Shown one piece after another: positions 12,557 through 33,135 of a stretch of 47,970 nucleotides of DNA. The DNA lies in IMG/VR virus record IMGVR_UViG_3300045003_000008, positions 1 to 47,970 of that record; one strand, written 5' to 3'. The stretch's first letter is position 1, and the number at the start of each line of letters is the position of its first letter. Under the pieces are notes generated by a model. That model was not told the DNA's origin. It did no database searches and was given only the letters and a program-made list of their open reading frames with translations. A program made the position numbers and the translations under genes. This DNA comes from a virus.

Positions 12557-14389
12557 TCAGTGGCATTCCGCCCAATTTGCGCCGATCTTGTATTCTCCTG
12601 TGAGGGGAACGTGAAATCCAAGAACTTCTCCAGCCTGCGCGATAGCTGAGACACAGGTAGAACCAACCTCTTGTCCGTCTTTGGGGTCGACATCATGTTG
12701 TCCTTCATCGTGGATGGTACCGACAAGCAAGCTATCAAGGCCCTTACGGATGATCTCCCGCCGAGCAATGATAGCGGCAGCCTTCATTACGATAGCACCT
12801 GCACTTTGGAGTTTATAGTTGAGCGCAGCGTGTTGAGACGGACACCGTACAAATCCCCCATCAATTGAACGTAGTACTCCACCAGTATGCTTGAATTCAT
12901 CCTTGATCTCAGCGACAAGAGCGGAGAGACCAGGAGTTCCTTTCTCAAGGATTGAACGAGCTTCCTTTCCATATATTTTAGCCTCAATCCCTTGAAGTTC
13001 AGGCTTGAGCGTTCTGCCCAGCTTGGGGTCTTGAGCGCCATAAAGATAAGCATAGAACCCGTTCTTAACTGTAATATCTCGCATTTCATCTGGTAGCCCG
13101 AGATTTCGAGTGTTAACAATGTGCGGGTCGCCTGTGGTGAACAGCGTAGTAGCTTCTTCATTATTGAGATACTGAGCAAACATACGCATTTCAAGGCCAG
13201 AGGCATCGTATCCAACTTGGACTCTATTCGGTCTGGCTCGCCATAGTCTTCGGCATTCAATTCCATATTTGACCTTTTTCTTGGCCTTTGGGATGTTAGC
13301 CGTGTTTGGGCTGTTGTGTGTCATCCGGCGGGTTGTTGCCCCACAGGTGATTACCCGTCCATGCATACAGCTATCATCGTAATTGACATTGTTCAGCCAG
13401 GTCTCGATCATTGTGGATCGACCCTGAAGTACTAGCCAATCCGCAATGGCCTGAACGGCAGGCTGCTTGGACAACTCAGCATAAGCGACAAGAGACTCTT
13501 CATCGACCTTCGGGAAACCCTTCTCAGTGTAACTGACAGGCTCCCATCCAAGCTCTAGTAGTCTTTCCACCCGTTGCTTAGGTGAACCAATGTTGAACTC
13601 GGACCAGTCTAGGACGCTGTACGTTCCATCATCATTGTGTCTGACCTCAGGGTACTCCGAGAGGTGTCTATTGTATGTTGCATAATCCGAACCATCTCGT
13701 TTAAATCGTCGATTATACGTTCCATACACCTCAAGTTGAGGCGGGAAGAGTTCCCGGATAGGTTGTTCAAGATCAGATTGTTCAGCACGAAGTTGACTGA
13801 AGAGAGCCTGCGCCCCAGCGATATCAAAGTACCAGCCGTTTCTTTGTTGCTCATCGAGCACCTCACGGATTTCATGTTCAATCTGGCATGAGAGTTCACT
13901 GTACCCCATGCGAGACATACGCTGCCATAGAGCTTTGGCAACCTTCTTACCTAGTCTTACGTCCTGTTGGCAGTACGTATCCATCTCCGGAGAATACCCG
14001 GACCAATCGTTAAAACTACCTTTAGGGTCTTTAAGACGTTCACCCCAAGCTTCCAGGCTATGGCCACCAGGAAGAGAGGGATCGTACAGATAAGACAGAA
14101 CAAGAGTATCGACAGTGTTAGAAGTGTTCGCCAATCCGTTCGCAAGTCGTTGCGTATGGACACAATCATACGAAATGGCATTGTGACCGACAAAGTACGT
14201 GTCCGTTCCCCGGAGTTCATCGAAGAACCTCCTGATCTGTTCGTGCCCCACGAATGAGAGAACCTCGTCTCTGTCCATCCGTGAGGCACACATCATCCAT
14301 AGCTTGTCTGGCCACAGCCCGTTGGCCTCTACGTCTATATAATAGTATTTGTGATACTCATTGGGCTGGGGAAGATACTTTATGCCCAC
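12557..14389 (-). CDS. Family A DNA polymerase with 3'-5' exonuclease (T7 gp5-like)
   Basis: This 610-aa replicative polymerase has an N-terminal proofreading domain with Y-I-D-V-E-A-N-G (Asp19, Glu21), a V-G-H-N-A-I-S-Y-D motif and Y-C-Q-Q-D-V. Polymerase motif A reads G-Y-D-A-S-G-L-E-M-R; the O-helix lies in the following Lys/Tyr-Gly region; motif C is T-I-H-D-E-G (His560, Asp561, Glu562). T7 polymerase is about 100 aa longer, mainly in the thumb and thioredoxin-binding insert, so processivity may depend on something else here. The annotated start is GTG 14389, only 2 bases after GGAGGT. An ATA two codons later has ideal spacing. It overlaps the primase-helicase stop. Confidence 0.95.
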   Translation of the reverse strand: MGIKYLPQPNEYHKYYYIDVEANGLWPDKLWMMCASRMDRDEVLSFVGHEQIRRFFDELRGTDTYFVGHNAISYDCVHTQRLANGLANTSNTVDTLVLSYLYDPSLPGGHSLEAWGERLKDPKGSFNDWSGYSPEMDTYCQQDVRLGKKVAKALWQRMSRMGYSELSCQIEHEIREVLDEQQRNGWYFDIAGAQALFSQLRAEQSDLEQPIRELFPPQLEVYGTYNRRFKRDGSDYATYNRHLSEYPEVRHNDDGTYSVLDWSEFNIGSPKQRVERLLELGWEPVSYTEKGFPKVDEESLVAYAELSKQPAVQAIADWLVLQGRSTMIETWLNNVNYDDSCMHGRVITCGATTRRMTHNSPNTANIPKAKKKVKYGIECRRLWRARPNRVQVGYDASGLEMRMFAQYLNNEEATTLFTTGDPHIVNTRNLGLPDEMRDITVKNGFYAYLYGAQDPKLGRTLKPELQGIEAKIYGKEARSILEKGTPGLSALVAEIKDEFKHTGGVLRSIDGGFVRCPSQHAALNYKLQSAGAIVMKAAAIIARREIIRKGLDSLLVGTIHDEGQHDVDPKDGQEVGSTCVSAIAQAGEVLGFHVPLTGEYKIGANWAECH

Positions 14390-15990
14390 ACCTCCTCTGC
14401 GGCATTACCGCCAGCATTGTAGATTTTAATCTGCTCATCAGTCAGTTGATTGAGACGCCCTGTGAACTCGTTGTAGTGCAAGTACGCACTTGGGCCGGTA
14501 CGACCACAGAAACGATTCTTCTCAATAGTGATCTTGGTAACATTGCGCCGCCACGGGTCTTCGGACAGCCGTTCACGATTAAGCTTCATAACAATATTGG
14601 CTAGCTGCTCGACACCAGCAGTGCCTCTAATTTGGCCCTGTCGGTTCTGGTGGATCACAGCGATCACCGCAATATTAAGCTCCATGCAGAGCGTCTTCAG
14701 CTTGGTCGAAATCTCATCCAGCTGTTTACGTTCATCCCCACTTTGATCAGACACAACGATAGAAAGGTGATCCAGGATGATATACTTGCACCCCAGATTG
14801 TGCATGTGTCTGACTTTATTGAGAATTTCTTGAATGCTGTTTGAACCAAAGTGATCGTAGATAACAAGCTTGTCGGTGTTGATGATCTCATCGAAGTACT
14901 TTCGCAGATCCTCTTGAGGAACTCCCTCACGCACATCGGGTAGATGCAACGGGAGGTTGGCCTCAATGGACATCAACCCCAGAGCTGTGTCCGAGTTTGG
15001 TTCTTCAAGATGAAGAAGACCAATACCGGCATCTGGTTTCGTCTTGCGGATGTGGTATTCAATTTCTTTAAGTACCGATGTCTTTCCAACTCCGGTCTCA
15101 GCTGTAACGACAACCAACTCCGATAGACGGATGCCGTAAGTCTGAGTATTGAGACCCTCCCATGGGTATGGAACGGTCTCATAGTTCTTTGGGGTGCTAA
15201 TCTCATCCCACATTTCACGGCCAAGTTTAAGGCCGCTAGGTGTGAACGATGGCGCTGCCCACCACTCACGGTTAAAGGCCTCCCGGAGACCAGCCTTAAG
15301 ATAGTCGTTCGGGTCTTTACCTTCTGCGAGAGTAAGAATTTTAACCTTGCCGATAGGGAACATTCCCGCCACAGCAATTGCTGCTTCTTGACCAGGGTAT
15401 CGAATTTGGCCAGTGCGTTCATTGACCTTAGCCTCGTCCTTGTCAAAGACAATTACGATGTTTGGGAAGCTGTTAAGGTACTCGAAATTGTCAGCAACAT
15501 CTTTAGCAGCTCCATCAGCTCCATTCCGGACAGAAACGACGGGCCACCGACTTCCCATGAGTTCAAATGCCGCCGGAGCGTCATATTCTCCTTCAACCAA
15601 GGTGATAAACTTTGCCGAGCCGGCCGGGAATAGCTGGCTTCCAAAGAGACCAGAGTGTTTGATATCTCCCTCGACAGAAAATTCCTTGTCCGGGTACCGA
15701 ACTTTATTCGCGAGGTGTTTGTTGTCATTGAAATACGGGAAATAAGTGATCCCGCCTTCTCGCCAGATACCATACTTCTCAGCACTTGCCCGGCTAATCT
15801 TTCGGTCTTCAAGTGCAACGAAGTTCTTCTTAAGCTCAGTCAGCTCCGCTGGCAGTTTCTTGCCCTCCTTGAATGTCGTTAGACCACATGAAAAGCAGTG
15901 CGTGTGGCCATCGTCATACAAGGAGTTGGCGTCTGAACTACCGCATCCGTCGCAGCTTAAGTGCCGTATGAATTTCGATTGGCTCGAAAT
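14380..15990 (-). CDS. T7 gp4-like bifunctional DNA primase-helicase, apparent ATT start
   Basis: This protein of about 536 aa has a zinc-binding domain with Cys13, Cys16, Cys32 and Cys35 (CDGCGSSDANSLYDDGHTHC), a TOPRIM-like primase core (TLVEGEYDAPAA, IVFDKDEA) and a RecA-type helicase domain (AETGVGKTSV Walker A near residue 295, YIILDHLSI Walker B, HQNRQGQ). The zinc region matches T7 gp4 closely. No ATG, GTG or TTG lies in frame between an upstream stop (TGA, 16008-16006) and the zinc domain; the first one is TTG 15921, beyond two of the cysteines. ATT 15990, 7 bases after GGAG, gives an N terminus of the T7 length. Confidence 0.92.
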   Translation of the reverse strand: MSSQSKFIRHLSCDGCGSSDANSLYDDGHTHCFSCGLTTFKEGKKLPAELTELKKNFVALEDRKISRASAEKYGIWREGGITYFPYFNDNKHLANKVRYPDKEFSVEGDIKHSGLFGSQLFPAGSAKFITLVEGEYDAPAAFELMGSRWPVVSVRNGADGAAKDVADNFEYLNSFPNIVIVFDKDEAKVNERTGQIRYPGQEAAIAVAGMFPIGKVKILTLAEGKDPNDYLKAGLREAFNREWWAAPSFTPSGLKLGREMWDEISTPKNYETVPYPWEGLNTQTYGIRLSELVVVTAETGVGKTSVLKEIEYHIRKTKPDAGIGLLHLEEPNSDTALGLMSIEANLPLHLPDVREGVPQEDLRKYFDEIINTDKLVIYDHFGSNSIQEILNKVRHMHNLGCKYIILDHLSIVVSDQSGDERKQLDEISTKLKTLCMELNIAVIAVIHQNRQGQIRGTAGVEQLANIVMKLNRERLSEDPWRRNVTKITIEKNRFCGRTGPSAYLHYNEFTGRLNQLTDEQIKIYNAGGNAAEEVWA

Positions 15991-17123: not shown

Positions 17124-17388
17124 TGAACCTCTCATTGTACTTGTTGATCTTGAACTTGGCACGCTCAGTGATGCGACTGACGAAGTGCTCGGACGCATTG
17201 GCAATGACGAATGTAGTGGATGCAAGAACGTCTCCGAACTCCTCCACCAATTTCTCGTACAGTTCATTGCCGTCCTCATCCATCTCAAATTCATCAATGA
17301 GATTGATAATCTTAAAGAGAACTTGGGCCAACTCCGTGCCCTCCTCCCCGGACTTCATCAATCCGAAGAGAAGCTTCTGATCACTCAT
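17113..17388 (-). CDS. MazG-like nucleotide pyrophosphohydrolase
   Basis: This is a 91-aa four-helix protein with the all-alpha NTP pyrophosphohydrolase signature: G-E-E-G-T-E-L-A-Q in helix 1 and E-E-F-G-D-V-L-A in helix 2 (an ExxE plus ExxD metal site). Such enzymes convert (d)NTPs to monophosphates, cleaning pools or lowering alarmones. It is coupled to the HAD gene by a one-base overlap and sits near thyX, within the nucleotide-metabolism group. Confidence 0.82.
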   Translation of the reverse strand: MSDQKLLFGLMKSGEEGTELAQVLFKIINLIDEFEMDEDGNELYEKLVEEFGDVLASTTFVIANASEHFVSRITERAKFKINKYNERFNED

Positions 17389-17876
17389 CAGTCATGGTCC
17401 TTTGCTTTGATGTCGTTGTAGGTTGAGAACAGAAATCCATCATAATAATTAACCAGAACAAGACGGGATGACATGCCAACAGGATGTTCGAACTCTTTAC
17501 ACTCGTCCGGGGCGTAAGGTTCATCGTCTACCATCACATACTTGTCGACTTCGGGATGACGCGAGAGCCACTCAGCAACACGACTGTAACGCCAGTCGAT
17601 GTGCTCATTGCACCAGGCATCCTGATGGAAATGCTGTCGCTCAATTCCCTGGTCAATACAGTGCTGATGAGTTTTCTCACCGCCCTCGATCCTGACCCAG
17701 GAACTGTGCAACACGATCTCCCATCCGTGTTCGTCGCACAGGTGGTTGAGGAGGCTCACGGCAACTGGATCGAAAAGAGTCATGATCGGCGTCTGCTTTG
17801 GCATCACAAGACACCGATACGGAATCATTGGCCCGTCGATGTCGAGAAACAAAATCTTCTGACTCTTTGAAGTCAT
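17388..17876 (-). CDS. HAD-superfamily phosphatase-like protein (HAD_SAK_2 type)
   Basis: This 162-aa protein opens with ILFLDIDGPM, the Asp-x-Asp motif I of HAD hydrolases. A motif II-like strand IVLHSSW follows, and Y-V-M-V-D-D-E supplies the acidic motif IV. There is no large cap domain. The pattern resembles HAD domains linked to nucleic-acid end repair (the Swiss-army-knife repair group), so 5'/3' phosphate removal is possible, as is action on nucleotides. It lies between thyX and the MazG-like gene. Confidence 0.78.
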   Translation of the reverse strand: MTSKSQKILFLDIDGPMIPYRCLVMPKQTPIMTLFDPVAVSLLNHLCDEHGWEIVLHSSWVRIEGGEKTHQHCIDQGIERQHFHQDAWCNEHIDWRYSRVAEWLSRHPEVDKYVMVDDEPYAPDECKEFEHPVGMSSRLVLVNYYDGFLFSTYNDIKAKDHD

Positions 17877-17914: not shown

Positions 17915-18571
17915 TCAATGGTGTTGAGCAGCATTAAGCAGGCCGGCCTGTCTTGCCGCCGCAAAAACAATTGGGCAGTGTCCTTCAAGTTGTTCCTGGA
18001 TTGCCTGAGCAATAATTCGGTGCTCATACTGTGTCTCCGGGCCAGTACGGATGGCCAGATAGTGCAACCAATCCCTAATGGTACCGTTCATGTACATCCG
18101 TGTCTGGGTCAGGCCCTCAGGGAGTAGTTTGCGAGCCAGCTCCTTGGCGATTCCAAGCTTGAGACACGTCTGATAACCCATCCAACAGAAGTCCCAGACG
18201 GTGTTCTGCCAATGTGCCCAATTCTGACTGATCTCTTCATCATGGGTGATGATGGAGTTCTGTCGGTTCTTGGTGTCTTGTAGACGTGCATCACTGAACA
18301 GCGGCTCCTCGGGGACCACGCTGTAACGCTGACTGAACTCTTGGAAATGGAAACTTCGATGTCGGAGAATTTGGCGTGCGATGTCCCTTGTGGTGACGAT
18401 CTCAACGCACGCATTCGCCATTTCAAATGGGGACCAGTGCTTGTGACTGATCAGATAGGCGATGAGCTTTTCAACAGGATCGTCAGGGTTGGCTTTGGGG
18501 TTGGACACCCGAGCCATGTAACCAATACGTTGATCCGCCTCGGGCGTGATCCATTGCAGCTTAGCAGCCAG
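17915..18571 (-). CDS. thyX: Flavin-dependent thymidylate synthase, non-canonical start
   Basis: This enzyme of about 218 aa makes dTMP from dUMP using FAD, NADPH and methylene-folate. The ThyX motif RHRx7S is present (Arg70-His71-Arg72 to Ser80), as is the C-terminal R-x-x-L-P-x-G-L-T-Q-T region. No ATG, GTG or TTG lies near the expected N terminus. ATA 18574 is 7 bases and CTG 18571 is 10 bases after GAGGAG. The only upstream ATG (18697) would add a lysine-rich 42-aa extension, translated out of frame across the zinc protein. I use CTG 18571, but ATA 18574 is equally possible. Confidence 0.9.
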   Translation of the reverse strand: MAAKLQWITPEADQRIGYMARVSNPKANPDDPVEKLIAYLISHKHWSPFEMANACVEIVTTRDIARQILRHRSFHFQEFSQRYSVVPEEPLFSDARLQDTKNRQNSIITHDEEISQNWAHWQNTVWDFCWMGYQTCLKLGIAKELARKLLPEGLTQTRMYMNGTIRDWLHYLAIRTGPETQYEHRIIAQAIQEQLEGHCPIVFAAARQAGLLNAAQHH

Positions 18572-18725
18572 TATCGTAGAACTCCTCTTCTTCCAGTTCG
18601 CTTTCTTCTTCTTTATCCTGGTCGTATGAAAGGATAGTGTCTGTGATAATGGCTTGGCATTCTCGACAGTCAGTATTGATATGATTGACCGTCTCATCTT
18701 CCTTGTCGCAGATCGCGCAGCGCAT
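18561..18725 (-). CDS. Small zinc-ribbon protein with acidic tail, 54 aa
   Basis: Two Cys pairs (C-A-I-C and C-R-E-C) about 14 residues apart, with a His between, would bind one zinc ion. A very acidic tail follows, ending D-T-G-C. ATG 18725 shares one base with the stop of the preceding gene. Its 3' end overlaps thyX and its Glu codons supply the thyX GAGGAG site. Confidence 0.72.
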   Translation of the reverse strand: MRCAICDKEDETVNHINTDCRECQAIITDTILSYDQDKEEESELEEEEFYDTGC

Positions 18726-19153
18726 TAGCAGAAGCCTCCACAGAATTCGAAGTTGCTGTCGTCCTCCCATGGAGGATCGTCGTCTTGTGGATGATCTTCT
18801 TCCTCGTCAATCACCCGCCTGATCCAATCTAATACCCACGCCCTTTGTTTCGGCGTCAAAGTACGAGCAAGATTAGTGCAGCGAGTTTTGATCTGCGGAA
18901 GATGTTCCTCCGGGTTCTCAAAGGAGGAGACGATACGATTAACACGACGGGTAAGATCAGTAACAATGTCATCAGCAAGATCAGAGAAGTCAACATGACC
19001 CGGATTGATTGTCCGTTCATAAATGACCCACTCGTTCTTCTTGCGGGCGAAGTATTGAAAGCCAAACCGATTGACCAAGGCGTATTCAAGACGGAGTGGA
19101 ATGTCCGCCTTGAACTTGATCCTACGCTTCAAAGTTTCGGAAGGCATTGGCAT
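18725..19153 (-). CDS. Hypothetical protein with acidic tail and terminal CGGFC, about 142 aa
   Basis: The basic N-terminal half (PLRLEYALVNRFGFQYFARKK) and a helical middle end in a long acidic tail (EEEDHPQDDDPPWEDD) finished by F-E-F-C-G-G-F-C. The start is uncertain: ATG 19153 and ATG 19147 both lie inside the 3' end of the ATP-grasp gene and lack a strong ribosome-binding site. The terminal Cys pair recalls redox tails, but no family is recognised. Confidence 0.65.
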   Translation of the reverse strand: MPMPSETLKRRIKFKADIPLRLEYALVNRFGFQYFARKKNEWVIYERTINPGHVDFSDLADDIVTDLTRRVNRIVSSFENPEEHLPQIKTRCTNLARTLTPKQRAWVLDWIRRVIDEEEDHPQDDDPPWEDDSNFEFCGGFC

Positions 19154-19895
19154 AGCTTTCAATTGTTTGACCTTCAAGCCCGGGGGCGGTGTTGATTTCC
19201 AAGACATAATATGTGCCCGCCTTATCACGGATGATGTCCACTGCGCCAAAGTCGAGCCCTATTGCGCCGGTGGCGGCGATTGCCAGAGCGTCACGATCAG
19301 GATCAGGATTGATATTATTACGAGCAAAGATAAATCCATTTTCGTGAGACCTCACCTTCCATGAAGTGGGCTCCTTGTTCGGGTCCCTGATCTTCTGTTG
19401 TGTGTCGATTACTTTCCCACCAACAACGTGGACACGATACTCCTTCTCTTTGAACACGTACTTTGTGTAGAGTGGAGCGGGTGGGACTTCTTGTTTCTTA
19501 TCTACAATTATAATACCTTGACCAGAGTGACCTGTCAACTTGGTACGTGCAAAGACAACAAATTCATTGTCTGCCCAAGACTGAGCAACCTTCGGATCAT
19601 CAGTCCAGTCAACTGTCTTTACGTGTATACCGTTATAAGGATTTTGAGACTCAGGCCCAAATAAAAACTGGAAGAATGAAAGTTTATTTGTAACAATACC
19701 AACTGCATTCGGTGCATTGAGGATTTTAACGTTGTTAACGTTCTTAAAACCATAAGGTTGGCTCGATCCCCAATTGATCACCAAGTCGGTGGTCTTGATC
19801 TTCCCACCTTTGCGAGCCCGTACGAAGCCGGGTTGTTTAGCCAACTCAGCCGCCCCATCGCTGGGGCGACCATTAGTTGCGATCCAGATGGTCAC
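19122..19895 (-). CDS. ATP-grasp ligase
   Basis: This 257-aa protein has an ATP-grasp fold: a Gly-rich loop T-G-H-S-G-Q-G-I, a Y-V-F-K-E-K-E-Y-R-V-H-V strand, Arg/Lys residues for ATP, and the metal-binding E-I-N-T-A-P-G (Glu233, Asn235), close to RimK and D-Ala ligase types. Such enzymes activate a carboxylate as acyl-phosphate and join it to an amine or thiol. It is translationally coupled (ATGA) to the amidoligase. Comparative genomics has described phage gene sets combining ATP-grasp with amidoligases and amidotransferases. The substrate is unknown. Confidence 0.85.
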   Translation of the reverse strand: MTIWIATNGRPSDGAAELAKQPGFVRARKGGKIKTTDLVINWGSSQPYGFKNVNNVKILNAPNAVGIVTNKLSFFQFLFGPESQNPYNGIHVKTVDWTDDPKVAQSWADNEFVVFARTKLTGHSGQGIIIVDKKQEVPPAPLYTKYVFKEKEYRVHVVGGKVIDTQQKIRDPNKEPTSWKVRSHENGFIFARNNINPDPDRDALAIAATGAIGLDFGAVDIIRDKAGTYYVLEINTAPGLEGQTIESYANAFRNFEA

Positions 19896-20959
19896 TGCTC
19901 AACTTCCACCGGAAGATCAGCCCAATTCAGGGCCCAATGCTGACCACCAGCTTGGATGAAGTTCAGCAGACCATTGCCGGGAGCATTACCAACTGGGGCT
20001 TGAGCCTCGATGTCCATAGCAACAGGGGCCATCCCGACTACCTTCTGATACGCTTTCTTCTTACGCTCATAATATTCAGCATCATCCTTCTTCTTGTCCC
20101 GTGTAGCCCATTTGGACGCGAAGGCAAGGTCCTGGGCGAGGCGCATCCCCTCACGGAGCATCCCCTCGAAACCCGCCACCTTGGCGTACTTGGATGCACA
20201 GTGACCGAGGACAAAGTAAAGGAACTCCTTCTCGGACATACGAGAGAAGTAACGGATGATGTCCTGGGGATCGTCGAACTGTCTAGATGCCGCCTTGAGA
20301 GTGGCCAGCGTTTCCACCCAATGTTCGACCCGCTTGAAGTCTGTGGTGCATTCGAGCGACCGGAACTCCAGCGTACCGTACTTCATCAACGACACAAAGT
20401 TCACGGAGCTGTAGCGATGGTTCGCGTTCAGCCCGTACAGATTGCCATGATGCATGATGGAGTTGATCATCTCGGCGATCTGCCCTTGAGCGTCCTTCGC
20501 CCTCAGACAGAAGTTGTTCCCGATCCGATGTTCCCCATTCTGGGACACGAACAGCTCATCGAAGATGATGGCCAGAGTAATGAAATTGTAGATATGACGA
20601 AGAGTGTCAGCAGCACAATTGACGTGGACGTGGATCGAAGTCCGATAGCTGGGAAACACTTCCACACCCTCCCCGTTCAAGTGATCGAACAAGATTTTGA
20701 TGGCGGTGTACGTGTCTTCCAACTTCAGCGGACGACGCAGCACGTATTCGATGGCTTCTTCCCCCGGCTGCTTGATACGAAGGGAACCATCATTGTGGAT
20801 GTCCCAGAGCGCAACAATGTCACGCTTCTGGGTCTTGAGTTTCTTACCTTCCAGCTCAATCTCGAACCCGAACATATCGGGAAAGACAACACAATCCTGA
20901 TGGTGAACTTGGATGTCCTCGAACAGCTTTCGATCGAGGTGCATCGGATGAGAGTACAT
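19892..20959 (-). CDS. Amidoligase (glutamine-synthetase-like COOH-NH2 ligase)
   Basis: This 355-aa protein has the amidoligase pattern: F-G-F-E-I-E-L-E-G (metal Glu residues), I-H-N-D-G-S-L, T-S-I-H-V-H-V-N and R-Y-S-S-V-N-F ... G-T-L-E-F-R-S. These are the ATP- and metal-binding strands of the two-domain GS-like fold. The family forms amide or peptide bonds between a carboxylate and an amine with ATP. A helical extension rich in Lys and Ala (after about residue 290) is added at the C terminus. It is the central gene of the modification cluster and overlaps the ATP-grasp gene by 4 bases. Confidence 0.88.
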   Translation of the reverse strand: MYSHPMHLDRKLFEDIQVHHQDCVVFPDMFGFEIELEGKKLKTQKRDIVALWDIHNDGSLRIKQPGEEAIEYVLRRPLKLEDTYTAIKILFDHLNGEGVEVFPSYRTSIHVHVNCAADTLRHIYNFITLAIIFDELFVSQNGEHRIGNNFCLRAKDAQGQIAEMINSIMHHGNLYGLNANHRYSSVNFVSLMKYGTLEFRSLECTTDFKRVEHWVETLATLKAASRQFDDPQDIIRYFSRMSEKEFLYFVLGHCASKYAKVAGFEGMLREGMRLAQDLAFASKWATRDKKKDDAEYYERKKKAYQKVVGMAPVAMDIEAQAPVGNAPGNGLLNFIQAGGQHWALNWADLPVEVEQ

Positions 20960-20960
20960 C

Positions 20961-21548
20961 TTAGGCCACCGCCTCCTTGAGTGCCTCGATTAGATGTTGG
21001 TACTCATCCATCAGCTCGAAGTCTTTCTTAAAACAGCCGATGGCTTTACCCTTGTACTCCAGGATCATGTCCTTATGGATGTGATCCCAACATGCGGCGA
21101 AGTCCTTATGGAAGGCCAACACTTCCGCGTTGCGATCCTTGAGAGGTTTCTCAATTTCCTCGAACTTCGGATAAACATTCTCAAGCATATCAATGATAGG
21201 CTTGTTCATTCCGAATTCGACGCGGTGAAGGAATTCCTCCTTGGAGGCGAACGGCCGCACTTGCTCTGCCTTCAGACCTTGACGGTACTGCTTCAGTGGT
21301 ATCCTGTACCACCAAGCGGCGGAGTGACCATGGTTGGAATAGCCAAGATTATAACGCATGAAATTCAAACCCTCATCGTTGAGGAACGCGGTCTTGTAGT
21401 TCCGAGCATTCGGTGTCGCCAGTTTTAGGGCGTACTTACCCATCTCAACTTCCATCGCGTCCTTAACCAGGTGGACCTTGCCATCGTAATAAATATAAGT
21501 CCCGAGGAGCTTGGAACGAACGTCTTCCAGATTATCGTACTGGAGCAT
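20961..21548 (-). CDS. Uncharacterised protein of the amidoligase cluster, 195 aa
   Basis: The start is probably ATG 21548, two bases after the preceding stop; longer in-frame starts would overlap the ligase gene. The sequence has an N-terminal beta region (TYIYYDGKVHLVKDAMEVEMG), a W-W-Y-R-I-P motif and helices rich in Phe, Lys and Glu (KDFAACWDHIHKDM). The conserved-looking aromatic and His residues suggest an alpha-beta domain, but I recognise no family. Sitting between two ligase genes, it may be a substrate carrier or accessory factor (inference). Confidence 0.75.
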   Translation of the reverse strand: MLQYDNLEDVRSKLLGTYIYYDGKVHLVKDAMEVEMGKYALKLATPNARNYKTAFLNDEGLNFMRYNLGYSNHGHSAAWWYRIPLKQYRQGLKAEQVRPFASKEEFLHRVEFGMNKPIIDMLENVYPKFEEIEKPLKDRNAEVLAFHKDFAACWDHIHKDMILEYKGKAIGCFKKDFELMDEYQHLIEALKEAVA

Positions 21549-21550
21549 TG

Positions 21551-22366
21551 TCAGGCGGGCACCTTCTTCAAACCGAGGTCCAGTGTCGGCCACTTGGCCT
21601 GCCAGTCCACGATGTTGTTGTCGATGATGTGTTGGGCAAGGTCCTCGTAACGATCCTCCGCCCAGAAGTTATCGAGAGCGTCTTTCATGCCGACCTGGAT
21701 GGAGTAGTAGACCCAGCGCATCAGCGCCTCGGAGTCAAGCCACCGATTGGACATGACACGATACTCCATACCGTATGGCTTAGGTCTGAAAGCTCCCGCC
21801 TTGCCGTATAGGAGGCGGCGGGTGGGGTCCTTGTCCCAAAGCAAGGAATGAATACCAAGATAATAATCCATTTGACGGGCGATCTTGGCACAATAGACAT
21901 AATGTTCCTTGTCATTCACGTCCTGCCCCTCGGTCCAGCCAATGTGGACGTGACCGGATGCGGTACGCATGGGCTTGTTGCCCGGATCAGGGCTGGGGTT
22001 CTGATCCAACGTCCAGCCGTTGAAGTCCGGATCGCAACCCAGGGTCTGGGCGGTTGCAGGAACCTCCCAGGTGAAATACGCCTCGTCGTAGAGGGCCACC
22101 GGCTCGGCCACCACGTTGAACCCGGGGACGTAACTTTCGAGGGTCTTGCGAACCTCCTTGATACGATAGACGAACTGATCAACCGTTTCGGCCGGATCAA
22201 TGTTGAATTCGAGAGCCGTTCCGTCCACTTGGATTGCGCCGAAGGGCACCTTGAACGGCTCATACTTGGTGCCCGGAACCCGGTCATGCGCCGAGACGAA
22301 CTCGCCGTTGTTGGGGTTCCGCATGAACAGCTCGGGGTCAGCCCCCACGAGGATTTTGGTCGTCAC
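21551..22366 (-). CDS. phiEco32-type COOH-NH2 ligase
   Basis: This 271-aa protein matches the second amidoligase type first noted in phage phiEco32: V-G-A-D-P-E-L-F at the N terminus, V-D-G-T-A-L-E-F-N-I, G-C-D-P-D-F-N-G-W, S-G-H-V-H-I-G-W and Y-R-V-M-S-N. These are counterparts of the GS-fold metal and ATP sites. GTG 22366, 6 bases after AAAGGG, is preferred over ATG 22372, which directly abuts the same site. Two ligases of different subfamily in one operon suggest successive coupling steps or two different carboxyl acceptors. Confidence 0.87.
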   Translation of the reverse strand: MTTKILVGADPELFMRNPNNGEFVSAHDRVPGTKYEPFKVPFGAIQVDGTALEFNIDPAETVDQFVYRIKEVRKTLESYVPGFNVVAEPVALYDEAYFTWEVPATAQTLGCDPDFNGWTLDQNPSPDPGNKPMRTASGHVHIGWTEGQDVNDKEHYVYCAKIARQMDYYLGIHSLLWDKDPTRRLLYGKAGAFRPKPYGMEYRVMSNRWLDSEALMRWVYYSIQVGMKDALDNFWAEDRYEDLAQHIIDNNIVDWQAKWPTLDLGLKKVPA

Positions 22367-22406
22367 TATCATCCCTTTCTTGCTTCGTAAAGCAACGCTT
22401 GTGTTG

Positions 22407-23531
22407 TTAGATGATGTTCTTGCAGAGTTCGAAGACTTCCTCGTCGTTATAACATTCCTCACAAAGGAAAGAGCCGCCGCTTTCCACCGTCTTAATAGGT
22501 GCGATGAATTCACCCCACATTATGTTGTTGTTACCACAAAAGACACAACCATCAGCAGTTATACGATTGAATTCTTTCTTGTTGATGATCTTGCCGTTGT
22601 GGTCTTTATACGGCGGACGGAACCGCCGGGTGTCAACCCGACGATCAAATGCCGATGTAGTCGCCGTACTCCGCTTCCCACCATGCTGCGTAGTCGTCGT
22701 TCTTCGGTCGAAAGGGAGAACGTTATCGCCGCTTGCGCCCCCGCGATTTCCGTGCCCACCATGGTAAGGTGACCAGTTCCCCCCGTAATAATGAACCACG
22801 GGGGGCGGCGGAGGAGGGCCTTTCATCTCCTCCTTCCTCGGTTGGCCGAACTTCTTGGAGATGCTGTCGGGGATTTCCCATTCGAAATGGTGGTCCACTT
22901 CGAGTTGATAGAACTCCCCATTCTCTAGTTCGACCTTGGATCGCTTGAGGACAAAGTCAAGGATGCCCGCCTCGGACCCCCAGATAAGGGTGCAACGGTC
23001 CTTCGAGTAAGCGTACCACAGCGGACGCTTCTCGTTTCGCAGCAGGTTGATGGTGTTCTTCGTGGCGTCGTACCACGTAAGAGCCCACGCCCCACGGAGC
23101 TTGTCGATGGTGTCCTTCAGACCGTTCTGGTTGATGTTGGAGAAGATCGCAGCGCTGTCGGTTCCGAGGTGCTCGTTGCCGTACAGCTCCTTGATCGAAG
23201 CCCGCTCCAACGTACCATTGTGAGCACCCACGACCTTCGGGAATGCGAAGGGATGGGCGTTCTCGATGGTGTGCTCACCGATAGTTGCATATCGGTTGTG
23301 GCCGATGATGCACTTCACAGGTGGGTTGATGGACTGTTTGTACTCGGGGTCCATAATCAGATTATGGGGACCACCCGGTTGCTTTACCAAGCCCACCTCG
23401 TTCTGGTAGCGTTTGACCGCTGCCATTCCAGTTGAATGGGCGCCGCGAAGACTGTCAACAATGAGTAGATCAGTAAAAGTGTCCTTCCAGTGGCTGGATG
23501 TGTCTCCAGCGATACCGACTAGTCCGCACAT
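22407..23531 (-). CDS. Class II (Ntn) glutamine amidotransferase with C-terminal zinc ribbon
   Basis: The 374-aa protein begins M-C-G-L-V-G-I-A-G with Cys2 as N-terminal nucleophile after Met removal. R-G-A-H-S-T-G, G-H-N-R-Y-A-T-I-G, A-H-N-G-T-L and G-T-D-S-A-A follow, as in GlmS/PurF-type domains that release ammonia from glutamine. There is no synthase domain. A Pro/Gly/His-rich linker (about 240-290) leads to a zinc ribbon (C-V-F-C ... C-E-E-C). The ammonia could feed the neighbouring ligases. Its start overlaps the 62-aa gene by 13 bases. Confidence 0.9.
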   Translation of the reverse strand: MCGLVGIAGDTSSHWKDTFTDLLIVDSLRGAHSTGMAAVKRYQNEVGLVKQPGGPHNLIMDPEYKQSINPPVKCIIGHNRYATIGEHTIENAHPFAFPKVVGAHNGTLERASIKELYGNEHLGTDSAAIFSNINQNGLKDTIDKLRGAWALTWYDATKNTINLLRNEKRPLWYAYSKDRCTLIWGSEAGILDFVLKRSKVELENGEFYQLEVDHHFEWEIPDSISKKFGQPRKEEMKGPPPPPPVVHYYGGNWSPYHGGHGNRGGASGDNVLPFDRRTTTTQHGGKRSTATTSAFDRRVDTRRFRPPYKDHNGKIINKKEFNRITADGCVFCGNNNIMWGEFIAPIKTVESGGSFLCEECYNDEEVFELCKNII

Positions 23532-23707
23532 TTAATTTCGCCGTTCTCCACGAGAAATCCATAGGCGATTGCCCAGGCACGATCACCATGGGCAACCCAT
23601 TGGCTGAGCAACGTGCCACCGTCCCGGACTTGGACAGAGCCCCACTCAGATTTGACTAGATCAGCTTTCGGTCGAACTCGCCTTACGGCTTCCCGACAAT
23701 AGTTCAC
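23519..23707 (-). CDS. Small protein of the amidoligase cluster, 62 aa
   Basis: The frame starts at GTG 23707 in a GTGA overlap with the class I amidotransferase stop and ends inside the class II amidotransferase start. The sequence has a helix (REAVRRVRPKADLV), then a beta hairpin with W-G-S-V-Q-V-R-D-G-G-T and W-A-I-A-Y-G-F-L-V. It could be a small stabilising partner of either amidotransferase. No family is recognised. Confidence 0.65.
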   Translation of the reverse strand: MNYCREAVRRVRPKADLVKSEWGSVQVRDGGTLLSQWVAHGDRAWAIAYGFLVENGEIKCAD

Positions 23708-24342
23708 GCAGCCGCCTTGTAGCAGCCTAGGAGCAGCTCCACGGACCAGTCGGCGAACTCGCTGCCCGGCATGTATTCCGGGTGCCCTTGGATGCACAGC
23801 GAGCGCGACTCCGGGTACCACACCGTCTCGATGTCATGGTTGGTGTCGTGGATGTCGTTAAGCGTGTCTTTCTCGGAGAACTTGTTCTTGGACTCCGAGG
23901 CCACCGCAATGACTGTTCCCTTATTGAGGTTGGGCCGCATCATCTGGTGGTGCGTGGACGAGATGAAGATGTTCTTCCCCGTTCTGAGGTCGAGCATCTT
24001 GTGGTACTTGCCGTGGTTGTCCACATGTTGCCATAGCGTACCGCCGTTGAGACAGTTGAGAAGCTGAGCACCACGACAGATGCCAAGGAAGAACTTGTCC
24101 CCAACATAGGTGTTGAAGATGTCGATCTCCTCGTCATCTCGCCTGGAGCGGAACGCGGGGATGCCACGGAAGGCTGGTGCCTCGCCGTAGATTTCCGTCC
24201 CGATGTCCGCACCGCCGTTGAAAACGATGATGTCCGCCAGATCGGGGTTTCGCACCTCCGACATCTGGTGAAGACGAAGAAGGTAGCTCATCGAGTCCTG
24301 GCCACCCCAATCTCCGATGGAGTAGAATTTCAGTCGTTGCAT
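23704..24342 (-). CDS. Class I glutamine amidotransferase-like hydrolase (peptidase C26 type)
   Basis: This 212-aa protein has the class I amidotransferase triad: nucleophile elbow G-I-C-R-G-A-Q (Cys89), and G-H-P-E-Y (His187, Glu189). F-N-G-G-A-D-I-G near residue 42 and S-T-H-H-Q-M match the PuuD/gamma-glutamyl hydrolase branch, which cleaves gamma-glutamyl bonds. It could release ammonia or trim a gamma-glutamyl group made by the nearby ligases. AAGGGG lies 5 bases before the ATG. Confidence 0.88.
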   Translation of the reverse strand: MQRLKFYSIGDWGGQDSMSYLLRLHQMSEVRNPDLADIIVFNGGADIGTEIYGEAPAFRGIPAFRSRRDDEEIDIFNTYVGDKFFLGICRGAQLLNCLNGGTLWQHVDNHGKYHKMLDLRTGKNIFISSTHHQMMRPNLNKGTVIAVASESKNKFSEKDTLNDIHDTNHDIETVWYPESRSLCIQGHPEYMPGSEFADWSVELLLGCYKAAA

Positions 24343-24351
24343 GTCTTCCCC

Positions 24352-25284
24352 TTAGAAGTCATCGTCAATGTCATCATCCCAGTCGGGATCATCATCGTCA
24401 TCAACATCATCATCGTCAGCAAGATCAACAAGAAGATCATCTTCTTCATCGTCTGGCACAGCTTGGGCAAAGCTATCGACCATATGTTGGATGGTTGATT
24501 TCTCCCCAACCTTGGTGAACCCAAAGAAATCGGACAATTCCTTGACCGTTTTACCGATCAGGGCCTGACCTTCCGTCTGTTTAATTGACCCCCAAATCTT
24601 ATTGGTGGGGCGACAAGAACGAGGGTTCTTTTTATAGTTCTCGGAGAACTGCTTGACCAGCGGCTCCCCGAATAGGATAGGCTTCCACGCGGACGTGGGG
24701 TCGATCCAAAAGTGTCCAGACGGACAATGGATTTGATGTAGCTTCCACCCCCAAGGATCACCCTCAGGTAGCTTCAGGCCGTCAACATCGTAGACGTTTC
24801 CACCATACGAGATACGACAGGCGATCAACCATGCTAACGTCTCATCAACGCCAGCGGCGGAGAGCTTATCCCAAAAAGGCAACATGTACGGATATTCAAC
24901 GGGAACCCGAGTTGCAATGCAAAAGTTGTAAATGACGTTCGAGGGCCAAGTGTCTAGCTTGGTGCAACGAACATAATACTTCTGCTCACCATCAACCTCG
25001 ATGCTTTCGAGACTAATGCGATCGCGGAACGCTCGGAACGGTCCGTCGATAAGGAAAGTGATATAAGACAGATCGAGTGGTTCAGACATCGGAATACTGG
25101 TAATTATTTGATCGTAACAACCAGGTTTGTGATACTGCATCTGTGCGTGACAAATAGCAGTCCAATGATGTTCAGCCTTTGCCAGATCGTCGGTGAAGAC
25201 GAACCAACTACACGGACTGGCTTTTGAAAGTTGAGGATACGTTTTAACGAGCTGCTCAGTTAGTTCGCGCTCGCGTGGGATCAT
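24352..25284 (-). CDS. Uncharacterised protein with SSB-like acidic C-terminal tip, 310 aa
   Basis: Residues 1-270 form a mixed alpha-beta domain with many aromatic residues and several Cys/His (for example W-K-L-H-Q-I-H-C-P-S-G-H-F-W), but no family I know. The last 35 residues are mostly Asp and Glu and end D-D-I-D-D-D-F. A terminal Phe after an acidic run is the hallmark of bacterial SSB and T7 gp2.5 tails that dock onto DNA-metabolism proteins. The gene starts directly after the preceding stop and lies in the amidoligase operon. The acidic tail might bind SSB partners or be a carboxylate-rich substrate for the ligases; both are inference. Confidence 0.8.
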   Translation of the reverse strand: MIPRERELTEQLVKTYPQLSKASPCSWFVFTDDLAKAEHHWTAICHAQMQYHKPGCYDQIITSIPMSEPLDLSYITFLIDGPFRAFRDRISLESIEVDGEQKYYVRCTKLDTWPSNVIYNFCIATRVPVEYPYMLPFWDKLSAAGVDETLAWLIACRISYGGNVYDVDGLKLPEGDPWGWKLHQIHCPSGHFWIDPTSAWKPILFGEPLVKQFSENYKKNPRSCRPTNKIWGSIKQTEGQALIGKTVKELSDFFGFTKVGEKSTIQHMVDSFAQAVPDDEEDDLLVDLADDDDVDDDDDPDWDDDIDDDF

Positions 25285-25701
25285 TTAGGCGTTGACGACC
25301 TTTCCCTCGTTGATGGGGTCGGAGACGAAGCTGTTGCTCTCGTCGCGGATGAAGAAGCCCTGGGGCCCACCCCGCGGCTTGGCGGTGCCTAGACGAACGA
25401 AGCCGGCCTTGGCGATCACGTCCATGATCTTCTTGGAGCCCATCTGAGCGCTGTTGAGCGTCAAGAAGGTTAGTTTGGGCTTCATGGTCTCGTAGGAGAA
25501 GACCTGATGGTCAGGGATGGACGTGTTGAGAACGCCGTTGATCTGTTCGAGAAGGTCCTCCTCGGACAGCATATGGACGTTCTTGAAGCCGGAGATAATG
25601 CGAGCACCACAGCACAGCGGCCACAGTTGGGTGCGCATCTCATCGGGGTAATGCCCCGGGTAGGACGGACCGAACTTGGCGGGGACCTCAGCTTTAGCCA
25701 T
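25285..25701 (-). CDS. Hypothetical protein, 138 aa
   Basis: The ATG at 25701 has AAGGA 9 bases upstream. The sequence contains L-W-P-L-C-C-G-A-R-I-I-S-G-F near the start and a F-V-R-L-G-T-A-K-P-R-G-G-P-Q-G-F-F strand-turn-strand near the end. I do not recognise the fold. It directly precedes the acidic-tail protein and shares its operon, so it may be a partner of that protein. Confidence 0.75.
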   Translation of the reverse strand: MAKAEVPAKFGPSYPGHYPDEMRTQLWPLCCGARIISGFKNVHMLSEEDLLEQINGVLNTSIPDHQVFSYETMKPKLTFLTLNSAQMGSKKIMDVIAKAGFVRLGTAKPRGGPQGFFIRDESNSFVSDPINEGKVVNA

Positions 25702-25794: not shown

Positions 25795-26193
25795 TCAGTT
25801 ATCGCTGGAGGTCTTGTTGCCGGCTTCAGCCTCGTTCTTCGAGATTTGCTTGTCGAGCCAGCTTTCGAGGGCCTTCTCGGCCTTACCGACGACTGGTGCC
25901 TTGATGACCTGTTCGCCGAGTTGGGACGCTGCGATGGCGTACATGGTATCCTTGGACGGACACAAAGCTGCCAGTAGAAGACATAGAAAGACTAAGAAAG
26001 CCAATACACCAACATTCTTAGGCTTTTTGGCGTCCCTGTCCTCTTTGGACGAGTAACGATTATCGCACTCAGCCCAATAAGGTATCCATCGCATTATGCT
26101 GAAAACCAGCAGCGCAAGTCCAGCGAAGATGAACAGAGGTCCCAGGTTCTCCAAGACGTTGGCTGTGTAGATCAGCCAGGAAAGATAGTTCAT
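25795..26193 (-). CDS. Conserved phage membrane protein, 132 aa
   Basis: Two hydrophobic helices (about residues 14-37 and 63-83) flank a charged Cys- and Arg-containing loop. A C-terminal P-S-K-D-T-M-Y-A-I-A-A-S-Q-L-G-E helix and a W-L-D-K-Q-I segment follow. I recall this layout, with the M-Y-A-I-A-A-S segment, from several podovirus genomes; its role is unknown. ATG 26193 (AAAGGA upstream) is preferred over a longer frame that reads into the leader. It is the first gene after the 26.3-kb promoter. Confidence 0.75.
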   Translation of the reverse strand: MNYLSWLIYTANVLENLGPLFIFAGLALLVFSIMRWIPYWAECDNRYSSKEDRDAKKPKNVGVLAFLVFLCLLLAALCPSKDTMYAIAASQLGEQVIKAPVVGKAEKALESWLDKQISKNEAEAGNKTSSDN

Positions 26194-26316
26194 GGGAATT
26201 GTATCCTTTGACAGCGAATGTCTCAGCGGTATCAAAGGAAAAGTTGAGGGGGAGAATGCTCTCAAACCCCTCAAAGGGAAGATAGTTATAGGTATATTAC
26301 CGGGGGCATAAAAAGG

Positions 26317-26344
26317 ATTATACCCCGAAAATCAGACCTGTCAA
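26317..26344 (-). promoter_or_regulatory. Consensus sigma70 promoter for the amidoligase operon
   Basis: On the minus strand TTGACA (26344-26339) and TATAAT (26322-26317), 16 bases apart, lie about 125 bases before the membrane protein gene. It is the only perfect hexamer pair facing into the 26.2-12.3 kb block and so probably drives the amidoligase cluster and the replication genes. It starts within the 3' end of a 35-aa gene. Confidence 0.82.
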
Positions 26345-31243: not shown

Positions 31244-31777
31244 GTGGCATACCTAAAAGGGGACGAGAAGAGCCAAGGGACCAAGGGTCGTAAACTCACC
31301 CCCAAGATGATCAGCTTTATTGATGCTTACTTCGGTGAGGCCAATTTCAACGCAACCAAGGCGTACGACCTATCAGCGTACAATAGTACCACCACCTCAA
31401 AGGCCACCCGAGACAAGAGCGTCTCCGAGCTGTTGGCCCACCCGCTGGTCCGTCAAGAAATCGAACGACGGCAAATGAAGCGACAAGAACAGTCCGAAAT
31501 CAAAGCCGAGTATCTGATCAACAAATTGATGCAGATCATCTCGGACGACACAAACGAAAAGACCTCTGACCGCTTACGTGCCATCGAACTGGCTGGTAAA
31601 GCGATCGCCCTCTGGAAAGAACGCCAGGAAATCACAGGTGCCGATGGGGCCGCCATCCAGCACGAGCAACACGTAAAGGAAAGCGTTGCCGACTTCACCA
31701 GCAGAATTTCTAGCCTCGCTAAGCGCAGCGGAGCGGACAACGTTGTTGAGTTCCCTGAGCGAGGAGGAGCAAGCTGA
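31244..31777 (+). CDS. terS: Terminase small subunit
   Basis: This 177-aa helical protein reads K-L-T-P-K-M-I-S-F-I-D-A-Y-F-G-E-A-N-F-N-A-T-K-A-Y at its N terminus, typical of TerS DNA-binding regions. A coiled-coil oligomerisation stretch and a C-terminal tail follow. TerS rings select phage DNA and present it to TerL. GTG 31244 (GAGGAG 11 bases upstream) was chosen since the longer frame begins before the P2 transcription start. It overlaps terL by 92 bases. Confidence 0.85.
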   Translation: MAYLKGDEKSQGTKGRKLTPKMISFIDAYFGEANFNATKAYDLSAYNSTTTSKATRDKSVSELLAHPLVRQEIERRQMKRQEQSEIKAEYLINKLMQIISDDTNEKTSDRLRAIELAGKAIALWKERQEITGADGAAIQHEQHVKESVADFTSRISSLAKRSGADNVVEFPERGGAS

Positions 31778-33107
31778 ACTCAGATGGTATTGGGCCTTCT
31801 GGGCCAGAGAGAACCAACGAGCCCCGCCCGGAGACTGGAACACTTGGCTCGTGCTTGCGGGTCGGGGATTTGGTAAAACTCGGATGGGGTCCGAATGGAT
31901 CAGAGAGAACGTATGTGGTAGCACACCACTCAGTTCTGGACCTGCGAGATGGGGTCGTATCGCCCTTGTGGCCGAGACAGCCGCAGACGCCAGAGACGTT
32001 ATGGTCCTTGGTGACTCAGGGATACTCGCCTGCCACCCCAAGGACTTCCGACCCGACTGGTCACCAACCAACCGATGCTTGACGTGGCCCAACGGAGCTA
32101 AGGCTTGGGTCTACAACGCCACGGAACCGGATCAGCTTCGAGGTCCCCAGCATCACGCAGCCTGGGTCGACGAGCTTGCCAAATTCCGTTACATGCAAGA
32201 GACCTGGGATCAGCTGCAATTCGGTCTTCGTCTAGGGGAACACCCCCGCGCCCTGGTGACCACCACCCCCCGGCCCCTACCGCTTATCAAAAAGCTTATG
32301 GCCGATACGGACACGGTTGTTACCCGGGGTGCGACGCTGGACAACTCGGCCAATCTGGCTGCGAATACTGTCAAGCAACTCTACGAGAGGTATGGGGGTA
32401 CCAGACTTGGTCGCCAAGAGCTTGAAGGGGAAATCCTCACCGACATCCCCGGAGCCCTCTGGAACCGCGACACAATTGATGAGTGTCGAACCTTCGAAGT
32501 CCCTGAGAATTTGGAACGAGTACTGGTTGCCGTCGATCCTGCTGTCAGCAATACCGAGGGATCAGACGAACACGGAATTGTTGTTGTCGGTCTAGCCCGC
32601 GACAAAGACGGTTACGCCAGGGGATACGTTCTAGAGGATGGATCTCTTCGCGGTAACCCCGAGGATTGGGCCAGAAAGGCTGTTAATCTTTTCAGGTCTT
32701 GGGAAGCTGACAAGATTGTTGCGGAGAAGAACCAAGGTGGCCAGATGGTTGAAAGTACTATCAAGGCCGTTGATCGTTCTGTCCCTGTTAAACTGGTTCA
32801 TGCGTCCCGCGGGAAGTACGTCCGAGCGGAACCCATCAGCGCCCTCTACGAACAGAAACGAGTTCACCATGTTGGGCGTTTCGATCAGCTCGAAGACCAG
32901 ATGTGCCTTTTCTCTGTCGATAATATCCGGTCTATATCTAATGGGTCTCCTGATCGTGTTGACGCTCTTGTTTGGGGTCTGACCGAAATCTTCGACAAGA
33001 TTACTGGTCGTCGGATTATCACTGATAATACGTCGGCCCACAAAGATGAAGAGTCCTACGTGATCCAAGAGTGGGTCACCAACACACCGAATGGATGGAT
33101 GGCGTGA
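31686..33107 (+). CDS. terL: Terminase large subunit
   Basis: This 473-aa packaging motor has Walker A L-A-G-R-G-F-G-K-T-R (about 57-66), Walker B A-W-V-D-E-L (Asp162, catalytic Glu163), a T-T-T-P-R coupling motif and an RNase H-like nuclease domain starting V-A-V-D-P-A (Asp284), with later acidic residues including D-R-V-D-A-L. It pumps DNA into proheads and cuts the concatemer. TTG 31686 lies 5-6 bases after AAGGA within terS. Headful (P22-like) packaging would agree with a circularly permuted assembly. Confidence 0.95.
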   Translation: MPTSPAEFLASLSAAERTTLLSSLSEEEQAELRWYWAFWARENQRAPPGDWNTWLVLAGRGFGKTRMGSEWIRENVCGSTPLSSGPARWGRIALVAETAADARDVMVLGDSGILACHPKDFRPDWSPTNRCLTWPNGAKAWVYNATEPDQLRGPQHHAAWVDELAKFRYMQETWDQLQFGLRLGEHPRALVTTTPRPLPLIKKLMADTDTVVTRGATLDNSANLAANTVKQLYERYGGTRLGRQELEGEILTDIPGALWNRDTIDECRTFEVPENLERVLVAVDPAVSNTEGSDEHGIVVVGLARDKDGYARGYVLEDGSLRGNPEDWARKAVNLFRSWEADKIVAEKNQGGQMVESTIKAVDRSVPVKLVHASRGKYVRAEPISALYEQKRVHHVGRFDQLEDQMCLFSVDNIRSISNGSPDRVDALVWGLTEIFDKITGRRIITDNTSAHKDEESYVIQEWVTNTPNGWMA

Positions 33108-33135
33108 TCCGCGCCCCTGTAAGGAACACATATTA

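Follow-up and report, generated by a model that had tools for sequence, protein, structure and literature searches.

The 47,970-nucleotide viral window analyzed here (positions 1 to 47,970 of IMG/VR record IMGVR_UViG_3300045003_000008) contains a leftward operon belonging to a conserved phage cassette with the core H-G-E-D-C-B-A, and we see an even chance that its products act in one cytosolic pathway leading to an amide-linked conjugate of the gamma-glutamyl type. The cassette itself is already known, with a suspected effect on the host cell wall; this locus is a further member. Genes related to its members are found in about 300 sequenced phages, whose hosts include Pseudomonas, Escherichia, Vibrio, Salmonella and Rhizobium, and in at least 572 IMG/VR stretches. 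The original expectation, of known related sets with no known product, agrees with the literature: we found no cassette product identified after the 2009 prediction, nor any experiment with the cassette or activity for one of its members. Added here are a likely core set, two previously unannotated protein families (C and H) and residues to mutate, and one candidate target, hypermodified DNA, is made unlikely. Because several members reside in culturable model phages, the cassette question is directly testable.

Organization of the operon

All nine predicted ORFs (A to I) are present on the minus strand where they had been placed, with neighbors directly adjacent or sharing a few bases (Table 1). 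The promoter expected at about 26.3 kb was likewise recovered at the front of the operon, as a match by sequence only. For gene D the most probable start codon is ATG 22372, a correction of an earlier call. A crude hydropathy check of A to I indicated neither signal peptides nor strong membrane segments, and no PADLOC model of a known anti-phage defense system was matched. The cassette adjoins a replication module (primase/helicase and DNA polymerase genes), here together with ThyX.

Table 1. Features of the cassette operon, in order of transcription
Feature	Coordinates	Strand	Basis or remark
Sigma70-type promoter, TTGACA-16-TATAAT	26317..26344	-	12/12 consensus positions (sequence match)
Small protein, first ORF after promoter; phrog_3878	25795..26274	-	PHROG match; family in 10 loci
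Gene I, accessory family	25285..25701	-	CCG...GF...Q...GF motif; 32/111 loci
Gene H, core cassette protein, predicted thiol enzyme	24352..25284	-	Near-invariant Cys45, Arg126, Glu130, His191
Gene G, Peptidase_C26/gamma-glutamyl hydrolase-like	23704..24342	-	PF07722; triad Cys89-His187-Glu189
ORF F, 62 aa, GTG start	23519..23707	-	Overlaps G and E
Gene E, class II glutamine amidotransferase domain with C-terminal CxxC..CxxC module	22407..23531	-	PF13522
Gene D, phiEco32-type COOH-NH2 ligase	21551..22372	-	PF14395
Gene C, strict core partner sited between D and B	20961..21548	-	Co-occurrence; AF2 pLDDT 95.9
Gene B, Amidoligase_2, GS/GCS-like carboxylate-amine ligase	19892..20959	-	PF12224
Gene A, RimK-like ATP-grasp ligase	19122..19895	-	PF08443; GTG start overlaps B stop

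Enzymes of amide-bond chemistry

Each of the five proteins to which amide-bond chemistry had been ascribed clears the curated Pfam cut-off of its family, with concurring PHROG matches: A against RimK (31.2 bits, cut-off 21), B against Amidoligase_2 (47.3 bits, cut-off 22), D against COOH-NH2_lig (29.8 bits, cut-off 25), E against GATase_6 (65.6 bits, cut-off 27) and G against Peptidase_C26 (49.9 bits, gathering score 20.5). B and D retain the conserved acidic, histidine and arginine residues of their families, and their putative chemistry is carried over from distant families that have no solved relatives.

Judged by its score, A is RimK-like only and not a member of the RimK family proper (45.2 bits against TIGR00768, below the curated cut-off of 143.4). 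Its nearest solved relatives are the RimK alpha-L-glutamate ligases 7qyr, 7qys, 5zct and 4iwx, and it also lies near the peptide-modifying ATP-grasps MvdC and MvdD. RimK adds glutamate to ribosomal protein S6, and host proteins are the predicted targets of related phage ATP-grasp families; the RimK-like enzyme and the amidoligases might tag a host or phage protein, such as the ribosome or RNA polymerase, with amino acids. We consider this unlikely, given how far A falls below the RimK subfamily cut-off and that the cassette yielded no small carrier or substrate protein common to all loci. A small carrier peptide was rejected, as no small family is universal, and an acidic tail of H, considered as a RimK substrate, is restricted to 7 close relatives.

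The class II residues of E are intact (Cys2, the nucleophile after Met; Arg80; Asn105-Gly106 of the oxyanion site; Asp125). E has a glutaminase domain of the PurF/GlmS type with no synthase domain in the same chain, and it scores below the NCBIfam equivalog cut-off for EgtC, a class II fold hydrolase (21.4 against 218.7). Its ammonia-accepting partner could be D or B; no gene fusion that would prove a partnership occurs among the cassette loci examined. The triad of G is also intact. This protein is closest to the C26 gamma-glutamyl hydrolases Lin1909, SpuA and PuuD, which it matches better than class I amidotransferases, and it stays below the equivalog cut-off for gamma-glutamyl-CDP-amidate hydrolase (23.1 against 250). 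Because G is more like gamma-glutamyl hydrolases than ammonia-channeling amidotransferases, the earlier view that the operon holds two amidotransferases, one of each class, is doubtful; and since E has no synthase domain, the roles of ammonia supply and trimming proposed with it are best read as guesses.

Conservation of the cassette across phages

Co-occurrence was tabulated on contigs anchored by D, by C26 and by ATP-grasp, and E, D, B and A recur together in nearly all of them, far above chance. The D-anchored scan (111 loci) recovered C in 111, E in 110, B in 109, A in 108 and C26 in 94. Among 43 complete C26-anchored loci, E, D and B were each present in 43/43, A in 42, C in 38 and H in 34; the 42 ATP-grasp-anchored loci had B in 42/42, E and D in 40 each, C in 39, G in 37 and H in 27. 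All but one of 108 loci preserve the order D-C-B, and in 66 of 82 the distance from H to G, on whose upstream side it lies, is no more than 120 bp; about 300 annotated phage records contain the same cassette. Residues that do not vary among 16-17 diverse phages (9 in the case of G) all occur at this locus, including the catalytic ones of A, B, D, E and G. Loss of active-site residues and lack of co-occurrence in related phages had been named in advance as outcomes that would speak against a common multi-enzyme pathway; both results instead support it. The assignment is built on observed gene content, gene order, co-occurrence, family identities and intact residues. A cellular origin of the cassette was considered and rejected, because 84,980 genomes yielded just 7 D relatives, each of them on a MAG contig.

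GGCT (gamma-glutamyl cyclotransferase) was found in only 34/111 loci and is therefore a frequent companion rather than a strict requirement; in some lineages it replaces or accompanies G at its core position. Raw counts of C26 and GGCT looked complementary, and repeated replacement was considered as evidence for a gamma-glutamyl step; this was rejected on the tree, where C26 changes 2 times (one deep split) and GGCT 11 times (sporadic gain and loss). E, G and GGCT represent three enzyme types able to cleave glutamine or gamma-glutamyl amides, and recycling of host material is mentioned in PMC5498523, so that the operon could be a loose association of metabolic genes salvaging amide nitrogen with no product made. 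We find this quite improbable, because the presence of three ligases that consume ATP, together with two dedicated partners in a constant order, points to synthesis rather than salvage.

The four partners originally described as being of unknown fold fare differently. C and H are two constant cassette families, defined here, that have no known relatives. The structure of C is predicted with very high confidence; its match to HEX-1/eIF5A (E 0.02, TM about 0.3 or less) was too weak to accept, and structural likeness is otherwise confined to a local SH3/KOW/Tudor-like barrel. H is very divergent, is present in 88/111 loci, mostly just upstream of G, and had no fold match in the PDB (best E 0.12); its near-invariant residues suggest a thiol enzyme. 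Of 80 complete loci, 10 gave no H in a profile search, that of LUZ24 among them, and profile-profile comparison did not detect LUZ24 gp14/gp15 as H homologues. The position of gp14/gp15 and a CFG-like motif are suggestive of H. Gene I is a sporadic accessory, whose family includes LUZ24 gp12 and tf_13. F was rejected as a conserved partner, as it is not detectable beyond two of the closest relatives.

Proposed pathway and candidate targets

From these families we infer the following steps. E would free nitrogen from glutamine, or handle a gamma-glutamyl amide. With C as a scaffold that holds them together, D and B would form carboxylate-amine bonds at the cost of ATP, and A may attach an amino acid in the fashion of RimK. 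G (or GGCT) could then take off a gamma-glutamyl group, and H, through Cys45, might act on an intermediate, either as hydrolase or as acyl-transferase. Gamma-glutamyl chemistry is suggested by the proximity of G to Lin1909, SpuA and PuuD, by that of A to the RimK alpha-L-glutamate ligases, and by the linkage of GGCT in other phages. The product is possibly a modified cell-wall precursor or, equally tentatively, a free small metabolite. A bolder version, which strikes us as rather unlikely, holds that it is an amide metabolite or wall precursor specific to phages, with no known counterpart in any cell, that C is the scaffold pairing both amidoligases, and that H is a thiol enzyme whose fold the PDB lacks and which carries out a committed step.

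The gamma-D-Glu and DAP carboxyls of stem peptides are natural amidation targets, and the hosts in the listed cassette records are Gram-negative. As a specific claim, the cell-wall branch of our preferred explanation states that the cassette introduces unusual peptide linkages into stem peptides, blocking superinfection or readying the wall for lysis. The name "peptidoglycan modification" is given to it in PMC5498523 and PMC11945000, which, in the parts describing the cassette, follow Iyer 2009 and Hardies 2013. However, no test was found in the literature, and no cell-wall enzyme (Mur ligase or transpeptidase) lies in the cassette regions inspected. Moreover, because all cassette products look cytosolic, only cell-wall precursors would be within reach. 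We regard this claim as possible but doubtful.

The candidate targets first proposed included a nucleotide; a hypermodified genome is disfavored by published digests. Hypermodification of DNA or nucleotides could shield the phage genome, and the neighboring primase/helicase and DNA polymerase genes, with ThyX at this locus, would suit such a role. However, many restriction enzymes cut the DNA of two phages that carry the cassette, that of tf by RsaI, HpaI, EcoRV, SmaI and HaeIII (PMC3517423) and that of the LUZ24-like U17 by 11/16 enzymes tested (PMC11945000), and no known base-modification enzyme was found among the window genes scanned. This reading is therefore very improbable, and the product is most likely not a DNA base.

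Comparison with known systems

The gamma-glutamylputrescine pathway (PuuA-PuuD/SpuA) similarly combines a GS-like amidoligase fold with a C26 gamma-glutamyl hydrolase, to which G aligns with its triad intact. In contrast, B and D belong to GCS-like families without solved relatives, and the cassette adds an ATP-grasp, a GATase II, C and H. The butirosin side-chain pathway (BtrJ ATP-grasp, BtrG GGCT, BtrH transferase) likewise pairs an ATP-grasp with an enzyme that removes a gamma-glutamyl group, an analogy of logic only; no acyl-carrier protein was found in the cassette, and H is not identified as BtrH-like because it has no fold match in the PDB. The GGCT of phage tf is annotated as BtrG-like. 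RimK alpha-L-glutamate ligases are the nearest solved counterparts of A, although A lies far below their family cut-off. The closest likeness is to the phage cassette of RIO-1, PSA-HP1, PA11, CW02, LUZ24, PaP3, tf, phiEco32 and 7-11, putatively assigned to peptidoglycan modification (PMC5498523, PMC11945000), whose descriptions in the relevant parts of both papers mention neither C nor H as a conserved family. This locus shares with it the E-D-C-B-A set, its order and its replication-gene neighbors, and unites PF14395 and PF12224 amidoligases, a GATase II and a RimK-like ATP-grasp in one operon; with C26 present and no GGCT match anywhere in the window, its layout is closest to that of the C26-bearing Zobellviridae.

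Conservation of the cassette in phages

The amide-bond enzyme cassette of the window is real, conserved and already known. A tblastn search of 50,697 phage records returned relatives of the COOH-NH2 ligase D in 316 records, of the ATP-grasp protein A in 296 and of the Amidoligase_2 protein B in 272. The same genes stand in near-identical order in annotated regions of PA11, LUZ24, phiEco32, CW02, Asterion, KZY1, tf, phiM6, LAh_9, 7-11, RIO-1, RHph_I3_11, CVT22 and T5S1, and most of these cassettes adjoin or neighbour primase/helicase. A RIO-1-like version has been named a seven-gene ‘peptidoglycan modification cassette’, with a block to superinfection as the hypothesis (PMC5498523); this was later restated, with creation of an endolysin target added (PMC11945000), and the phiEco32 proposal is credited to Iyer 2009 (PMC10580990). 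No experiment on the cassette was found in the literature searched, which took in Iyer 2009 and Hardies 2013 through papers citing them. What we add are anchored co-occurrence counts, gene C as a strict core member, a correction for gene G, the description of the H family and literature evidence against a DNA target.

The 47,970-base window is a virus record and carries genes of podovirus kind. The nine ORFs of the original prediction are genuine open frames, tightly packed on the minus strand, and the promoter it placed near 26.3 kb is of the sigma70 type. A second strong promoter-like site within A could separately drive ThyX and the replication genes. After the cassette come ThyX and a conserved phrog_1818 protein of unassigned function; downstream of A the first family occurs in 16 loci and the second in 13.

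Features of the window
Feature	Position	Strand	Remark
DNA polymerase	12557-14389		
primase/helicase	14380-15921		
phrog_1818 protein	17388-17876		after cassette
ThyX	17915-18697		after cassette
A, ATP-grasp	19122-19895	-	
promoter-like site	19510-19538	-	within A; 11/12
B, Amidoligase_2	19892-20959	-	
C	20961-21548	-	
D, COOH-NH2 ligase	21551-22372	-	
E, class II GATase	22407-23531	-	
F	23519-23707	-	
G, Peptidase_C26	23704-24342	-	
H	24352-25284	-	
I	25285-25701	-	
sigma70-type promoter	26344-26317	-	ahead of cassette ORFs; 12/12 consensus positions
terminase	31686-33107		
portal	33091-35376		
major head protein	36400-37782		

A D-profile scan found at least 572 relatives of D in IMG/VR. The comparison covered 111 loci: IMG/VR contigs anchored on D, plus 18 regions from annotated phages and the window itself, entered under two handles (L001 and WIN, of which L001 was left out of later counts). 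C was present in 111/111, E in 110/111, B in 109/111 and A in 108/111, with C26 (the family of G) in 94/111 and gamma-glutamyl cyclotransferase (GGCT) in 34/111. Since anchoring on D could bias these counts, we recounted from other genes, many of the contigs being shared with the D-anchored set, so that the anchor is changed rather than the sample wholly independent: C26-anchored complete loci held E, D and B in 43/43 each, A in 42/43, C in 38/43 and H in 34/43, and ATP-grasp-anchored complete loci held B in 42/42, D and E in 40/42 each, C in 39/42, G in 37/42 and H in 27/42. The co-occurrence looked for in other phages is borne out for E-D-B-A, near-complete from all three anchors. Complementarity of C26 and GGCT across loci, at first sight independent support for a gamma-glutamyl step, was dropped because on the tree C26 changes 2 times and GGCT 11. 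Two ATP-grasp-anchored contigs (L252, L267) carry, of the core genes, A and B alone, and may represent a minimal or ancestral form.

The system appears phage-borne, since a search of 84,980 bacterial and archaeal genomes gave only 7 relatives of D, each of them on a MAG contig resembling binned phage. L111-L117, cassette-bearing contigs assigned to Colwellia, Crocinitomix, Patescibacteria and Dojkabacteria MAGs, look like phage sequence binned with bacteria.

Core and accessory partners

Of the four partners originally left without a fold, C proved strict core and H near-core; I is a sporadic accessory family, and conservation of F was not found. In 107/108 loci the order D-C-B is intact, and the median gaps within it are -1 and -8 bases. 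Pfam gave no convincing match for any of the 67 members of the C alignment, and the AF2 model of C (pLDDT 95.9) shows weak, local SH3/KOW/Tudor-like similarity only to solved structures. C would act as a scaffold for the two amidoligases D and B. A C gene also lies at 304530-304928 of MT135025.1 (Vibrio phage V07, 349 kb), scoring equal to C of the 50-kb VPp1-like podoviruses; this jumbo-size record may be a composite assembly.

H, a near-core family, is divergent, has no known fold and shows a set of residues that looks catalytic. The window protein alone gave zero tblastn matches in phage records; iterated profiles placed H in 88/111 loci (undetected in 10/80 complete loci), at most 120 bp upstream of G in 66/82. 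Three separate PHROGs labelled ‘unknown’ merge in the family. Mean column identity in the 66-member alignment is 9%. Cys45 and Arg126 are conserved at 97-98%, Glu130 at 89% and His191 at 87%, residues suggesting that H may be a thiol enzyme. Its AF2 model (pLDDT 84.7, pTM 0.81) has no PDB fold match (best E 0.12) and ten BFVD matches at E < 0.001. The named ones include two cassette phages, CVT22 and CW02, together with Cronobacter phage GAP52, which has a D of the phiEco32-like group; Aeromonas phage 4_4572 and crAss-like cr108_1 (A0A7M1S135, uncultured phage; E 1.8e-4, TM 0.30) are also among the matches. Profile-profile comparison confirmed relatives in 7-11, LAh_9 and RHph (94-98% probability), was marginal for phi32_87 (57%) and gave no link to LUZ24 gp14/gp15. 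Two H copies lie side by side in LAh_9, 7-11 and PKM.Lu.22.1, phages without C26, and at H's place LUZ24, tf and phiEco32 carry two unrelated-looking ORFs of 300-400 aa with an N-terminal CFG/CYG-like motif. LUZ24 gp12 and tf_13 belong to family I (motif CCG...GF...Q...GF), which occurs in 32/111 loci and usually lies upstream of H/G.

Enzymes, target and pathway logic

Pfam and PHROGs confirm the five predicted enzymes. A is a RimK-like ATP-grasp protein, yet scores well under the RimK cut-off; B is an Amidoligase_2 and D a COOH-NH2 ligase of phiEco32 type, while E is a class II GATase and G a Peptidase_C26. Active-site loss was looked for against positions invariant in 16-17 diverse phages (9 for G), and conserved family residues are retained, among them those for catalysis in E and G. 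The prediction of two amidotransferases holds for E but is doubtful for G, whose closest relatives are the gamma-glutamyl hydrolases Lin1909, SpuA and PuuD. Sequence comparison gave no solved relative for either D or B.

Hypermodified DNA as the target is disfavoured, since tf DNA is cut by RsaI, HpaI, EcoRV, SmaI and HaeIII (PMC3517423) and DNA of the LUZ24-like U17 by 11/16 enzymes (PMC11945000). All members look cytosolic in a crude hydropathy check, and any cell-wall target would therefore be a precursor, which we regard as a tentative candidate. A free metabolite as product is put forward with similar reserve, and tagging of a protein is possible but somewhat less likely.

E combines a PurF/GlmS-like glutaminase domain with a C-terminal CxxC..CxxC module and has no synthase domain; it may supply D or B with ammonia, or split a gamma-glutamyl amide. 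With three ATP-dependent ligases and gamma-glutamyl-cleaving enzymes, the cassette resembles the gamma-glutamylputrescine and butirosin side-chain pathways in logic, but not in membership.
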